Shown here in pieces: positions 11,475-16,750 of a stretch of DNA of 34,098 nucleotides. Within the stretch, counting starts at the first letter, position 1; every line of letters begins with the position of its first letter. The position numbers and the translations under genes were made by a program. The notes below the pieces were generated by a model. It worked only from the letters and a program-made list of their open reading frames with translations. It was not told where the DNA came from and searched no databases. This DNA comes from Candidatus Cloacimonadota bacterium (GTDB lineage: Bacteria > Cloacimonadota > Cloacimonadia > Cloacimonadales > Cloacimonadaceae), in NCBI GenBank assembly GCA_029561955.1, contig JAKQWO010000054.1, forward strand, positions 1-34,098. The letters are read 5' to 3'.

Positions 11475-13883
11475 CTACCTCACCACCGTCACCTTCTTAC
11501 TACTCACCTTCCTGCCATTCACCACCAGATTCATCAGGTAAATTCCACTGGAGCACTGCCTGTCATCTGCATCCCTGCCATCCCAATATGTAAACTGCTC
11601 GCCCATTTTACCGGCATCAAGTGCGATAGTATTCACCTTCTGCCCTTTGACGTTATAGATAGCTACACTTGCATTCTCGGCTTTATCCAAGTTGACCTTG
11701 ATATTGGTAAAGAATTTGAAAGGATTGGGATAGGCTTCCAGGCTTACCGCAGGGGCAGCCTGTGTGCTGGGATCGTCTACTCCAATTTGTCCCTGCCACT
11801 CATAGGCTCCCAGATCTATCTGACTACCGTAAATCCTCGGATCGCCCGCCAAATCATAAGCTGGTAACTGAAACCAATCGGGGAGTCCAAAGCCGCCAAA
11901 ATCTGTGGTACCCGCATCAATACAAGGCGAGTTCATGCCCAAAGCATAAGCGTTGTCGTCATCCCAAGCATGAAATTCAGGATTGAGGCATATATTGGTG
12001 CCGTACCACTCAACATCAGTTTCATAACTTAAGGGAGTGGTGTAAACAATAGTGTCCTCAAGATTATTAGCTGGACCAACCATACAATTTAGAAACTGTA
12101 ATTTGGCTTCCGGCGGGATATCTGGTTGAAAAAGAGAACTTGTGAGGCGGAAATTAACTTTAGATGGGTTGCTGATTATACTATTGATAAAGGAGGTGGT
12201 TTTAGAATCGTCTCCCACAATAAACATAGATCCGTGGCCATCGGTTGTTATGTTGTTGGCAAAAGTGCAGTTGATAAAATAGGTCTTAGTTTCCGCAGGC
12301 CATACATGAGATGCCAAGACCACCAAGCCATAATATGGTAATTCAGGAGCCTGCCTTGTCGCTCTACAATTGGTGATCTCCATATTTTGGAAGATATAAT
12401 CCCCTCCATTCCTTTGGCTATCCTGAGTTCGTGTGCAAAGCACAAAGCCAGCCAAGAAAGGGTAAGGTCCCGGCTTGGTATTGCGAACGCGGATGTTGTC
12501 CCCAAATACATTCCCTCCCCATAATTCTAACCCACTGGTAAACATGCAGTTATCTATGGTAATGTTTCTTAGGATCAACCGCTCGGGATAGAAGATAGAT
12601 ACCAAGCTAAGTTGTCGATCATTTTCATTGTACGGAACAAAGATATCTCGAAAACTGATGTTCTCCAGAGTAATACTGGGCTTGTCTAACTCAGCATGGT
12701 TTTGATAATTATCACGTTTATTATTGAATATAATTAAGTCGCCTTTGACAGGCGTGGGCACCATCTGCCCTTGAAAAGTAATGTTCTTGAGCATGACCTC
12801 TTTTTCTGCATCATAACCTAAGATAAAAGCAGTAGGTGCTCCTACTTCGAACAGTACACCTGCTTCACTTTCCCCAACGATGCTCACGTAACTACGGACA
12901 TTAAGGGGAAAATGCTGATCTTCGGCATATCTGCCATTGGCCAAATGGATAGTTCCTGGATTCTGCGCATTCGCTCCTATCCTATGCAAGGCAAGGGCAA
13001 TTGTTTTAAGCGGTTGGTCGCTCGATAAGCCAGAGCTGTTATCGTCACCATCGGGGCTCACATAGAGATCAGCCCAGTGTTGCTGCAACACCGTCTCGTT
13101 ATAATAAAAGCTGTAGCTCATCTCTATATGGTGGTAATGGTTTTCTATGAGCACACATTCCTTGAAATATTCGACATCCTGAGATATAGTATATTTATCC
13201 AAATATACATCTATATGGGAAATGGAATAGGTAACAATAAAGATATCGTTGCTCGAACCTCCAATGTTATTGTAAATGCTGCATCTGTTAGCAGAATCAA
13301 ATTGCAAGCTATACAGAATATCGTAATAACCATCCATCAACGTTCTAAATATAAAACCACCAGGACCCGTATCGCCCCAGTTGTCATAAATTTCAGTACC
13401 TGCCATATATGCATGGCTGTCGAAAAAAGATATCCCACCACCTCCATTTGACCAATTATCGTGAATGCTGCAATTTATTACAGCCACATTGCTAATGTAA
13501 GCGTAAATGCCGCCTCCTGAAACAGATTCTGGAGAAATATGAGAGCTCCCACTTCCATTTGTCAGGCTTAATCCTTGGATGGATACCTCCGAAGACTTCA
13601 CTCCGATGCAGCTTCCGCTTTGGTTGCCATTGATAATCGTTTGTGAGACATAACTGCTATCAGAGGTGCATAATTCCAAGCTGCCGAGAGTGAGGTTTTT
13701 GTTTTCGATCCACACATTTTCATAATACGTCCCTGGATGCACCAAGATGGTATCCTGTTCTGTAGCCGCATCTACCGCTGCCTGTATGCTGCTGAAAGCT
13801 TGCGAGCCATCTAGGGCTACTTGCAGGATATCGGCACCCAAGCTCAACGGGAGTAATAGTAGTATCAGAAGCATGTTTTTCAT
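11475..13883 (-). CDS. Exported right-handed beta-helix protein with C-terminal sorting domain
   Basis: This is an 802-residue secreted protein. MKNMLLILLLLPLSLGAD is a clear signal peptide, and GAGGAAACC directly precedes the ATG at 13881-13883, so I prefer this start to an in-frame ATG 45 bases upstream. Two parallel beta-helix blocks follow. The first has repeated GGGIYAY / NCSIHDN / GGGGISFF type rungs. The second opens with a DUF1565-like YVSPDGDDNSSGLS...PLKTI segment. A DLAGDPRIYGSQIDLGAYEW motif is common in such proteins. The last 85 residues (AYPNPF...GQKV...GIYLMNL...) form a type-IX/FlgD-like sorting domain. It is probably a surface or extracellular carbohydrate-binding or adhesion protein; no catalytic residues are evident. 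It follows the amidotransferase-like gene by 69 bp, separated by a 13-bp hairpin. Confidence 0.88.
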   Translation of the reverse strand: MKNMLLILLLLPLSLGADILQVALDGSQAFSSIQAAVDAATEQDTILVHPGTYYENVWIENKNLTLGSLELCTSDSSYVSQTIINGNQSGSCIGVKSSEVSIQGLSLTNGSGSSHISPESVSGGGIYAYISNVAVINCSIHDNWSNGGGGISFFDSHAYMAGTEIYDNWGDTGPGGFIFRTLMDGYYDILYSLQFDSANRCSIYNNIGGSSNDIFIVTYSISHIDVYLDKYTISQDVEYFKECVLIENHYHHIEMSYSFYYNETVLQQHWADLYVSPDGDDNSSGLSSDQPLKTIALALHRIGANAQNPGTIHLANGRYAEDQHFPLNVRSYVSIVGESEAGVLFEVGAPTAFILGYDAEKEVMLKNITFQGQMVPTPVKGDLIIFNNKRDNYQNHAELDKPSITLENISFRDIFVPYNENDRQLSLVSIFYPERLILRNITIDNCMFTSGLELWGGNVFGDNIRVRNTKPGPYPFLAGFVLCTRTQDSQRNGGDYIFQNMEITNCRATRQAPELPYYGLVVLASHVWPAETKTYFINCTFANNITTDGHGSMFIVGDDSKTTSFINSIISNPSKVNFRLTSSLFQPDIPPEAKLQFLNCMVGPANNLEDTIVYTTPLSYETDVEWYGTNICLNPEFHAWDDDNAYALGMNSPCIDAGTTDFGGFGLPDWFQLPAYDLAGDPRIYGSQIDLGAYEWQGQIGVDDPSTQAAPAVSLEAYPNPFKFFTNIKVNLDKAENASVAIYNVKGQKVNTIALDAGKMGEQFTYWDGRDADDRQCSSGIYLMNLVVNGRKVSSKKVTVVR

Positions 13884-13910
13884 GGTTTCCTCGCTTTTTT
13901 GGATTGATAG

Positions 13911-13941
13911 AGGCAGGAAGCGATGCACTCGCTTCCTGCCT
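13911..13941. repeat. Perfect 13-bp hairpin between two secreted-protein genes
   Basis: AGGCAGGAAGCGA (13911-13923) is an exact inverted repeat of TCGCTTCCTGCCT (13929-13941) with a 5-nt loop. It lies between the stop of the exported amidotransferase gene and the ribosome-binding site of the beta-helix gene. No U-run follows on either strand. It may be a terminator of unusual form, an mRNA-stabilising 3' structure, or a translation-control element. Confidence 0.75.
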
Positions 13942-13952
13942 AATCGATTGAT

Positions 13953-16259
13953 CTACTTCATCATAATCATTTTGTGAGTGTGGGAATCATCATTGGTCTT
14001 GATGCGAAAAAAGTAAATGCCGCTGCTCACAGAGCAATTTGATTTATCTATACCGTTCCAGTCAAGCGTGGACTTGCCAGCAGGATAGTGTTTGGAACCA
14101 AAATCAAAAACTTTTTGACCTTTGATGTTGTATATCTGGACAGTAGCTTCTGCTTCTTTACTCAGGACGAATGATATGCTTGTGTTGGGATTGAAGGGAT
14201 TGGGATAATTTGTGACGTTCTTCACTCTGGCAATGGGTTTGCAACCATTATCAGCATCCGTGCGAGAGAGATTAACAAAATAAACACCACCTTTTTCGGG
14301 AATAATCCTACTGGTAACAAAGGAATAATCTGCCTCATCTAACAACTGGTAATTTTGATGATGAGAGTGTGGAGCCTTGCTATCGTAAACAACCTCAATC
14401 ACAAGCGGAGCCGGATTGTCATAATCCGGATAGGCAAGAATCTGACAAGGTAACTCATCAATACTTGCTGCACCGATGCAGACACCATTTTGCTTTACAC
14501 CAATCTCTTTCACGGAATCTGCATTGTCCACATCGATTATGTCTACGACAACATAATCGGGTGCGTCTTCCCATTGGAAACATGTAACCCCACTTGTCCC
14601 TTTGGAGCTGGAAGCGGGAGCATTGGAGCGATTCCAAGTAAATTGATTTAAGTTTCTACTAAAGGTCACTATATAGCCTTTTCCAAATTCCATATTCTTG
14701 TTTTTTGTACTCCAAGTGTAAGTTGAATCAGGAATTACCGGGTTCTCTGCTTTTCCTTGACCTAATGGAGAGACATGATAGTACCATTTTTCGCCTCTAA
14801 CTTCTTTCACATCATAAAATGCAGTTCCAAAAGCATCTGCAATGTTTTGAGATGATAACAAGGTGTAGCTAACCCAGTATGGTTGATTTGCTACTATGTT
14901 GGTAAGAACCGGATTATTATGTGCTATAAAGTCAGCGTTACTGATAACAAACGATGGGGAGCCATTATGAATAGACGGGGAGTCAGAAGTAAAATGAAGT
15001 TTATACAACTCTTTTTGGCTTAGGGTAATATCAGGAATCCACCCATTATATTGATCATAGACTATTGATCGAACATATTGGTCATAGTAGTCTATTTGGT
15101 GCCAGCCTCCACGATTGATGAAATGGTTAAAATCGGAGAGCTTTGATGCTGGATTAATCTTCAAAATTGGAAAGCCAGTCCAATTGACTCCCTCGTGGAA
15201 AGCCAGCCTATGCGTAAACACTTCACGCGTAGCAGTACTGAAGTTTGGCATTCTTACTATGTTTCCCGTTGAAGAAATAAATACCAATTCATTATCATCT
15301 AACTGATGCTTAACCGAGTTGCCGCTTTCCCAAGGAATCGTGGAACTTGGGTCTTGGGTAGGAAATTCACTCATGAAGCCTGAATATATCCTGTTTCTCA
15401 TGACTTCATTAGTTTCATAGAAATAAGCCAATGGGTGTTCGCTATCATTTGTTTTCCTATAACCATAAAGGTCTACTCCATCACTTAGGATGAAGTTTCT
15501 ATTTTGGCTATCGTTCGTCTGTCTAACCACATCAAGTGCTTTACGTATCCCCCTAAGGATATCACCATTCTCTTTATGGATATTTAGCATAATCAATGAG
15601 AAATAGGCTTCTGAATCTATTTCCGTTTGCAGAGGATGCGTAGTGAGCCAAGTTGAATCTGCTATAGCAATTGAATCTACAATTGCATCTCTATTCACCG
15701 TGCCGTTGTGCATGAAGGTAAAGTCCCTGCCTCCATAGGTCATGATAAAGGGATGCGGATCGGAGATGTTCGAAGGACCACTTGATGCTGTTCGAACATG
15801 ACCCAGGAGTATTCTTGCTTTTCTATAATTCCTTATCAAACTAACTGCTTGTGAAAACCCTGGGTCACTGTAAGCTGGAGAGCTTCCCCTGAATTCATTC
15901 CAAGGCTGGATATTGGGAGTTGGATCCGTATAGTCATATAAAACTAGAGCCCAGCCATGTCGATTAGTCATTGACTGTTGCTTTAGTTTATTTATGCAAG
16001 GGTTGGTAAATTCAGAAAAGAATGTTGGATTTGGTGTTGCAGACAGGTTATAACCATTTAATCCTATCAGAGCCATCATTCGACATGCAGATAGAAACGA
16101 AACAGACATAGTAATCAATACGGCTAATAAAACAATTTTAGCACAGTCCAAACTAACTATAGTACAAATGGATAGCCCATGACTAAATCTTGAATCTAAC
16201 CCCGTTTTGGGCAGATCCTGGAGGGGGGGGGCGACAAATACGACATGATTTGTTCTCAT
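13953..16259 (-). CDS. Exported class II glutamine amidotransferase-like protein with C-terminal sorting domain
   Basis: The 768-residue reading frame has a signal-peptide core (KIVLLAVLITMSVSFLSA) ending at Cys59. The following domain resembles class II (Ntn) glutamine amidotransferases of the YafJ type: HGW (101-103), GHVRTASSG (153-161), DPHPF (167-171) and HNG (184-186). In this fold the nucleophile is an N-terminal Cys, so cleavage before Cys59 would expose it. LSAC is also a possible lipobox. The last 90 residues (YPNPFNPNTS...GQKV...GIYFFRI) are a type-IX-like sorting domain. The ATG at 16257-16259 has GGAAGG 9 bases upstream, but a C9 run lies in codons 10-13. A TTG at 16149-16151 would give a neat 22-residue signal peptide but has no ribosome-binding site. 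The substrate is unknown; a peptidoglycan or peptide amidase is possible. Confidence 0.78.
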   Translation of the reverse strand: MRTNHVVFVAPPLQDLPKTGLDSRFSHGLSICTIVSLDCAKIVLLAVLITMSVSFLSACRMMALIGLNGYNLSATPNPTFFSEFTNPCINKLKQQSMTNRHGWALVLYDYTDPTPNIQPWNEFRGSSPAYSDPGFSQAVSLIRNYRKARILLGHVRTASSGPSNISDPHPFIMTYGGRDFTFMHNGTVNRDAIVDSIAIADSTWLTTHPLQTEIDSEAYFSLIMLNIHKENGDILRGIRKALDVVRQTNDSQNRNFILSDGVDLYGYRKTNDSEHPLAYFYETNEVMRNRIYSGFMSEFPTQDPSSTIPWESGNSVKHQLDDNELVFISSTGNIVRMPNFSTATREVFTHRLAFHEGVNWTGFPILKINPASKLSDFNHFINRGGWHQIDYYDQYVRSIVYDQYNGWIPDITLSQKELYKLHFTSDSPSIHNGSPSFVISNADFIAHNNPVLTNIVANQPYWVSYTLLSSQNIADAFGTAFYDVKEVRGEKWYYHVSPLGQGKAENPVIPDSTYTWSTKNKNMEFGKGYIVTFSRNLNQFTWNRSNAPASSSKGTSGVTCFQWEDAPDYVVVDIIDVDNADSVKEIGVKQNGVCIGAASIDELPCQILAYPDYDNPAPLVIEVVYDSKAPHSHHQNYQLLDEADYSFVTSRIIPEKGGVYFVNLSRTDADNGCKPIARVKNVTNYPNPFNPNTSISFVLSKEAEATVQIYNIKGQKVFDFGSKHYPAGKSTLDWNGIDKSNCSVSSGIYFFRIKTNDDSHTHKMIMMK
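16223..16231 (-). repeat. Homopolymeric C9 tract (G9 on plus) near a start codon
   Basis: Nine C residues on the coding strand fall 28 bases after the ATG of the exported amidotransferase-like gene. With 9 C the frame is open through the signal peptide; with 8 or 10 C it reaches a stop within about 25 codons. This is the layout of a slipped-strand phase-variable switch, though a read error in the homopolymer is also possible. Confidence 0.7.
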
Positions 16260-16750
16260 TGTCCTGTTCCTTCCTTTATCGTTATTTTGGCTCCACTCTT
16301 AGTGGTCCCGAAGTCAACTCTGCTAACGGTAACTTATATGTCAAGAACTATTTTGCCGTGAGTCTTGTTTCTCTAAGATATCGTCCGATATTGACAGAAA
16401 ACAGATGCCAAAACCTCTGCTCTTTCTTCTTCTCACGTCGCCTGAAAATGCAAGTCAAAAATCAACAATTGACTTCAGGATATATTTCAGTATTCTAATA
16501 CATCACTTTTCGCCCCCTCCCAAATCGTCTATCTATGCACCTCTCCTCATCCTCTCCCAATCTACATCTTTGTAACGAACCCAAAGACAAGCAGTTAGGC
16601 CTGAGATTAAATAGTTGGTGAAAGGAGTGGGCAGAGGTGGCCTACCGGGTTCAAAAGTCAATTTTGACTCGGGCAGCAGAATTGCGCAAGCATAAGACAA
16701 CTGCCGAATCCGGACACTGTGGTTTATTCATCTGCTGTCCACTTGTCTTT

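Follow-up and report, generated by a model that had tools for sequence, protein, structure and literature searches.

A predicted exported class II amidotransferase-like protein of Candidatus Cloacimonadota with its predicted nucleophile at the signal-peptide boundary

Introduction

Most known class II amidotransferase domains supply ammonia in the cytosol. The window analyzed here, a stretch of 34,098 nucleotides from a Candidatus Cloacimonadota genome, encodes such a domain in an unusual setting, between a signal peptide and a C-terminal sorting domain. This locus raises a simple question: can the cut that accompanies export also free the catalytic cysteine, or is this residue instead the site of lipidation? 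The best explanation, to which we give a probability of roughly 0.7, is an exported cell-surface Ntn hydrolase of the class II fold whose nucleophile would be freed by the export cut and which would act on a gamma-glutamyl amide.

Layout of the gene

The features of the gene are listed below with their positions in the window.

13953..16259, reverse strand: coding sequence, 768 aa, of a predicted exported Ntn hydrolase resembling class II amidotransferases (open reading frame)
16266..16277, reverse strand: Shine-Dalgarno region (AAAGGAAGGAAC) 5' of the ATG (sequence; start kept in the relative L010 of genome G002)
16086..16259, reverse strand: signal peptide, residues 1-58, last residues VSFLSA (hydrophobic core IVLLAVLITM; Ala at -1; layout conserved in relatives)
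16083..16085, reverse strand: Cys59, predicted N-terminal nucleophile, at +1 of the signal-peptide cut (aligns to Cys1 of the class II domain)
15240..16085, reverse strand: catalytic Ntn (class II glutamine amidotransferase) domain, residues 59-340 (Pfam GATase_4; AlphaFold2; Foldseek)
15792..15800, reverse strand: HVR, residues 154-156, with the Arg expected to bind the glutamine carboxylate (His and Arg invariant)
15747..15755, reverse strand: HPF, residues 169-171 (conserved)
15702..15710, reverse strand: HNG, residues 184-186, the oxyanion-hole Asn-Gly (near-invariant)
15615..15617, reverse strand: Asp215 within EIDSE, presumed ligand of the glutamine amino group (the same in all 21 aligned relatives)
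14220..15239, reverse strand: middle region, residues 341-680 (matches no family; modeled with low confidence)
13965..14207, reverse strand: type IX secretion C-terminal sorting domain, residues 685-765 (Por_Secre_tail and TIGR04183 above cut-off; SprA and PorU in the genome)

Both ends of the protein are recognized by Pfam, as GATase_4 (E 4.5e-15, 55.7 bits for a cut-off of 23) and Por_Secre_tail (E 2.5e-10, 40.9 bits for a cut-off of 27). The amidotransferase gene is present in one copy in its genome, and the sorting tail has about 87 other matches there. The signal peptide consists of a long n-region of about 39 residues followed by KIVLLAVLITMSVSFLSA and Cys59. A good Shine-Dalgarno sequence, AAGGAAGG, lies just 5' of the start codon, and the same start position is found in a 61%-identical relative from genome G002, of the same genus. 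An internal start at Met51 or Met61 was rejected, because the signal peptide would then be destroyed or Cys59 lost, and because the G002 relative retains the upstream start. Nine consecutive G (C on the coding strand) at positions 16223-16231, within the n-region of the signal peptide, are missing from this relative and possibly mark a slippage (phase variation) site or an assembly error. The neighboring genes mtaB, aspS, purN, pyrG and thiolase are housekeeping-like and give no clue to the function of the amidotransferase.

Fold and active site

The Ntn fold proposed in the initial annotation is borne out by structure prediction. The AlphaFold2 model of the domain starting at Cys59 reaches a pLDDT of 85.7 and a pTM of 0.88, and its best Foldseek match is EgtC in complex with glutamine (4zfk; E 4e-13, TM 0.61/0.74), followed by SPO2029, PurF and GlmS. 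By model and structural matches, the domain has the alpha-beta-beta-alpha fold of these enzymes. A profile built from nine relatives matches PDB entries 3mdn and 1te5 as well as PurF. The middle region of the full-length model is too poor to be read.

The motifs HVR, HPF and HNG are located where they had first been placed, and a fourth signature of the class, Asp215, was found in addition. Across 21 aligned relatives sharing roughly 30% identity with the window protein, residues C59, H154, R156, P170, F171, G186, D215, N255 and D260 do not vary, and N185 is kept in 20 of them. R156, N185-G186 and D215 are taken, from established knowledge of the class II family, to provide glutamine binding and the oxyanion hole, and the domain thus combines a Cys at its first position with the Arg, Asn-Gly and Asp of a glutamine site. 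This active-site set is also fully or almost fully kept in nearly all the members found in a second phylum, Neomarinimicrobiota.

The same conservation bears on the proposal that the domain is a non-catalytic surface binding module whose fold and active-site residues are slowly being lost. Four relatives (L019, L035, L023 and L034) lack the Cys or other residues, and there are truncated copies from which the catalytic half has been deleted. Such a drift is nevertheless difficult to reconcile with an active-site set that is invariant or nearly so among divergent sequences of about 30% overall identity in both phyla, and a binding module is quite improbable.

Two more specific assignments were rejected. 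The EgtC equivalog model (TIGR03442) gives 37.3 bits for a cut-off of 218.65, and an amidotransferase in the strict sense, delivering ammonia to a synthase domain, finds no such domain in the protein, its neighbor being a beta-helix protein. EgtC, an Ntn hydrolase of ergothioneine biosynthesis, hydrolyzes a gamma-glutamyl amide without ammonia transfer. Since it is the best structural match, and since no synthase domain is attached to the window protein, hydrolysis would be more likely here than amide transfer, and the leading candidate for its function is that of an extracellular glutaminase or a gamma-glutamyl hydrolase.

A predicted nucleophile at the signal-peptide boundary in two phyla

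The window protein was said to have a signal peptide ending exactly before Cys59. This is confirmed (FLSA|C59), and the search for homologs of the same layout established it as a family trait in two phyla. Matches were obtained in 62 of 125 genomes of Cloacimonadota (E 1e-6), ordinary cytosolic class II enzymes among them, and in 45 of 199 genomes of Neomarinimicrobiota (E 1e-12); the relatives retrieved by sequence are Candidatus Cloacimonadota and Neomarinimicrobiota metagenome-assembled genomes. Among 98 related frames, the first position of the domain is occupied by Cys in 95 and by Ser in 3, these frames having been chosen by alignment to position 1, which biases the set to Cys and undercounts losses. 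The hydrophobic region ends at a median distance of 7 residues before this position, and within about 12 residues of it in all but two or three frames; the exceptions are L031/L113, L066, whose N-terminus looks incomplete, and L095, which is too short to judge. Among 38 further sorting-tail proteins encoded in the window's genome, none has a Cys at the +1 position of its predicted signal-peptidase site. The position of the nucleophile at the boundary is therefore not due to chance. In the same order, class II relatives that are cytosolic (the GlmS-like L029 and the PurF-like L030) start with Met-Cys, as usual.

In three proteins of Neomarinimicrobiota (L166, L171 and L172), a Ser replaces Cys1 directly after the signal peptide (VFA or LQG), and the remaining active-site residues are intact, which suggests a possible Ser-nucleophile version of the enzyme. 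Serine cannot be lipidated and can serve as an Ntn nucleophile. The Cys at position 1 is missing in L019, L023, L034 and L035. Active-site residues are lost in L019 and L035, the latter carrying a Ser at the Cys position and lacking other residues as well. In L031/L113 and in L035 (genome G042), the amidotransferase domain is fused behind an exported GLUG-like region of about 300-400 residues. Because the Cys of L031/L113 lies behind some 300 residues, and given the losses in L019 and L035, a free N-terminal Cys may not be required in some members, or these may be inactive.

One cut or two

The initial annotation held that a single cleavage both exports and activates the enzyme. To what extent this applies can be read from the residue that precedes the Cys, which in 94 members is A (33), G (6), S (5), D (21), E (14), N (4) or P (11). 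A single cut is plausible for the window protein and about 40 relatives having A, G or S before the Cys, but it is not a general rule, given 39 members with D, E or N, 11 with Pro, and one in which a domain of about 300 residues intervenes. In these cases a second cut would be needed, most simply self-processing as in PurF.

The 37 Cloacimonadota members with an acidic residue or Asn before the Cys (D 20, E 13, N 4) follow a precise pattern. In 34 of them this residue comes directly after a small residue compatible with a signal-peptidase site, and the X of such A-X-C members is always D, E or N. Only 5 of 38 other cargoes have D, E or N at +1 (Fisher 1.5e-15 against the A-X-C members, a value to be read with the caution that relatives are not independent), the sites of these cargoes being called with a rough home-made predictor. 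The tree requires 8 switches between the A|C and A-X-C states, at least 5 of which are forced by well-supported branches; the window protein (SA|C) is itself the sister of L046 (SAD|C), with a support of 100. No propeptide extends beyond the signal peptide in the window protein, whereas relatives carry 1, about 2 (L014), about 7 (L091, QNVECEE|C) or about 300 residues (L031/L113, with a weak GLUG match and E before the Cys) ending with D, E or N. Cloacimonadota members whose export cut does not fall at the Cys itself thus share a D, E or N before this residue.

Glu is found before Cys1 in several GPRATs. In these class II enzymes, the autocatalytic loss of a short propeptide exposes the N-terminal Cys (PMC7056826). 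The D, E or N of the A-X-C members fits the residue pattern expected from self-processing at X|Cys; alternatively, its role would be to block lipidation. A Neomarinimicrobiota clade (L173-L175, L178-L183, L185 and L190) has a Pro immediately before its catalytic Cys (LFP|C, LYP|C), a site suited to neither of the two signal peptidases.

These observations also allow a reading in which signal peptidase has no part in activation: the precursor would fold outside and the domain would always free Cys59 by a self-cut at X|Cys, whatever the nature of X. The variability of X (A, G, S, D, E, N, P), the variable distance from the export signal (0, 1, about 2, about 7 and about 300 residues in the series including L014, L091 and L031) and the precedent of self-processing PurF-type enzymes (PMC7056826) are consistent with it. 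However, A, G or S at -1 together with a usual c-region forms an ordinary signal-peptidase site in 44 members, and removal at such sites would occur at the membrane, before folding is complete. A self-cut as the only route is rather unlikely.

Possible lipidation of the cysteine

It had also been pointed out that Cys59 fits a lipobox, and this part stands: LSAC is a genuine match to the strict motif [LVI][ASTVI][GAS]C, and the lipoprotein signal peptidase LspA is encoded in the genome. The protein could accordingly be a lipoprotein, Cys59 being lipidated by Lgt and LspA cutting before it, with the domain reduced to an inactive, membrane-anchored binding module. The strict lipobox occurs in 10 of the 94 members, including the window protein and its G002 relative, but it is not conserved in the family. 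It is excluded in 50 of the 94 by D, E, N or P at -1, residues that no lipobox allows, so that about half of the family cannot be lipidated at the Cys; this half includes a 52%-identical relative (L106/L046) with SAD|C. The conserved active-site residues likewise argue against an inactive module.

The other exported proteins of the genome provide a control, based on a sample of 40 N-termini. No lipobox stands at the signal-peptide end of the 36 other sorting-tail proteins with a recognizable signal peptide; their signal peptides end with A or G, and the sole lipobox-like match lies inside the hydrophobic core. A Leu at -3, which gives a site a lipobox-like look, occurs in 10 of 38 predicted signal-peptidase sites of cargoes (rough predictor). 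SignalP might well call the window sequence a lipoprotein. Taken together, the family pattern, the type IX tail, the 36 cargoes and the Ser1 relatives make lipidation of the window protein itself appear unlikely, and the inactive lipoprotein as a whole improbable.

Predicted export by the type IX system

The C-terminal domain had been described as type-IX-like, and this holds with both Por_Secre_tail and TIGR04183. The genome encodes SprA (475 bits summed, for a cut-off of 200) and PorU (592 bits, for a cut-off of 420), so that the sorting tail has a machinery to serve. With its Sec signal peptide and a sorting domain above cut-off, the window protein has the makeup of a type IX cargo, and a type IX secretion system has been proposed for Cloacimonadota (PMC11285876).

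A beta-helix partner gene

The gene directly downstream is described by a further feature.

11475..13928, reverse strand: downstream partner, encoding a predicted exported protein with a right-handed beta-helix and a sorting tail, probable start ATG 13883 (DUF1565 and Por_Secre_tail; most long-form relatives have a homolog at this place)

The pairing of long forms of the amidotransferase (700 aa or more) with this downstream exported beta-helix gene is new here. A hand tally finds a partner homolog directly downstream of about 38 of 49 intact long forms, nearly 80%, and of 0 of 41 short forms. The contingency test, on 41 long forms with and 11 without a partner, gives a p value of 2e-16; this tally took in two truncated copies and one ambiguous match, and the contrast is independent of them. 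The pairing was observed in both phyla, at L106, L107, L109, L113, L193 and L205-L219 as well as at 11475-13928 in the window. The partner profile was restricted to the beta-helix body, a region of about 550 residues hardly covered by Pfam, and the sorting tail was left out; the window amidotransferase obtains no significant score with it. With this body-only profile L220 and L221 no longer match, and L223, which is ambiguous, was left out of the count. Six long forms without the partner are followed by a different exported protein, also beta-helix-like by sequence.

Since beta-helix genes of the partner family are present in 108 of 125 genomes of the phylum, the adjacency must have some chance component. 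This does not apply to genome G000, where the beta-helix gene beside the amidotransferase is the only match. In the window's genome, no other relative of the partner body was found at the thresholds used.

Amidotransferase remnants also adjoin the partner gene, at L010 (G002:C40), L225 (G009:C59), L226 (G009:C15) and L095/L108. In two genomes the catalytic part is deleted in frame, and the signal peptide, the Cys and the first residues are joined to the sorting tail; the others are truncated. The remnants in G009 and G002 lie ahead of the partner and retain the signal peptide and first residues, either fused to the tail or ending short of it.

Proposed mechanism and known systems

Sequence and model show the domains, the active-site residues, the layout, the spread of the family and the pairing of the genes; from these data we infer the cuts, secretion, activity and substrate of the preferred reading, the surface hydrolase. 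The precursor would cross the inner membrane by the Sec pathway in an inactive state, Cys59 having no free alpha-amino group. Signal peptidase I would cut SFLSA|C59, creating at once the nucleophile and its general base; in the A-[D/E/N]-C relatives, the same cut would leave one residue, which the enzyme would then clip off itself in the manner of PurF-type enzymes. Once folded, the enzyme would leave the cell by the type IX system, PorU removing the tail and anchoring the protein, which would hydrolyze at the surface the gamma-glutamyl amide of free glutamine or of a gamma-glutamyl compound, probably acting together with the beta-helix neighbor. The protein is probably a glutamine-cleaving enzyme activated by export. 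The fuller proposal is more tentative and somewhat short of even odds: membrane crossing would be the activation step throughout, signal peptidase creating Cys1 with or without self-removal of one acidic or Asn residue, and the long form would be surface-active with a dedicated beta-helix partner.

The closest structures, EgtC (4zfj, 4zfk, 4zfl) and GATase_4 proteins (1te5, 3mdn), share the fold, the Cys nucleophile and the Arg, Asn-Gly and Asp set. They differ in being cytosolic, in their Met-Cys start and in the lack of a signal peptide or sorting tail, at about 18% identity. The propeptide-bearing PurF/GPRAT enzymes of Bacillus subtilis and Arabidopsis (GPRAT2) share the class II domain and free their Cys autocatalytically (PMC7056826), but they are intracellular or plastidial, fused to a synthase domain, and have neither a Sec signal nor a sorting tail. 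Exported Ntn hydrolases, such as the choloylglycine hydrolase/penicillin V acylase group and the AHL and penicillin G acylases, have the Ntn fold in common, some being exported and freed by cleavage, and yet these Cys- or Ser-Ntn hydrolases form separate families without the HVR/HNG glutamine site. Type IX cargoes, gingipains and others, likewise combine a Sec signal and a C-terminal sorting domain with a PorU sortase in the genome. A literature search, with most subscription journals outside its scope, returned nothing joining "glutamine amidotransferase" and "type IX secretion" and no secreted class II amidotransferase. Their sequences mark the window protein and its relatives as a real branch of the class II Ntn family, an unusual one in that it appears to be exported.

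Significance

If this reading is true, two uncultured phyla possess a secreted family whose nucleophile lies at the export cut, an arrangement that would tie activation to secretion and protect cytosolic glutamine from an unregulated glutaminase. Relatives in which Cys1 is preceded by 0, 1, about 2, about 7 or about 300 residues would constitute a natural series for studying how Ntn enzymes free their nucleophile, and within the very large type IX secretomes of Cloacimonadota a small fraction would gain a testable function.
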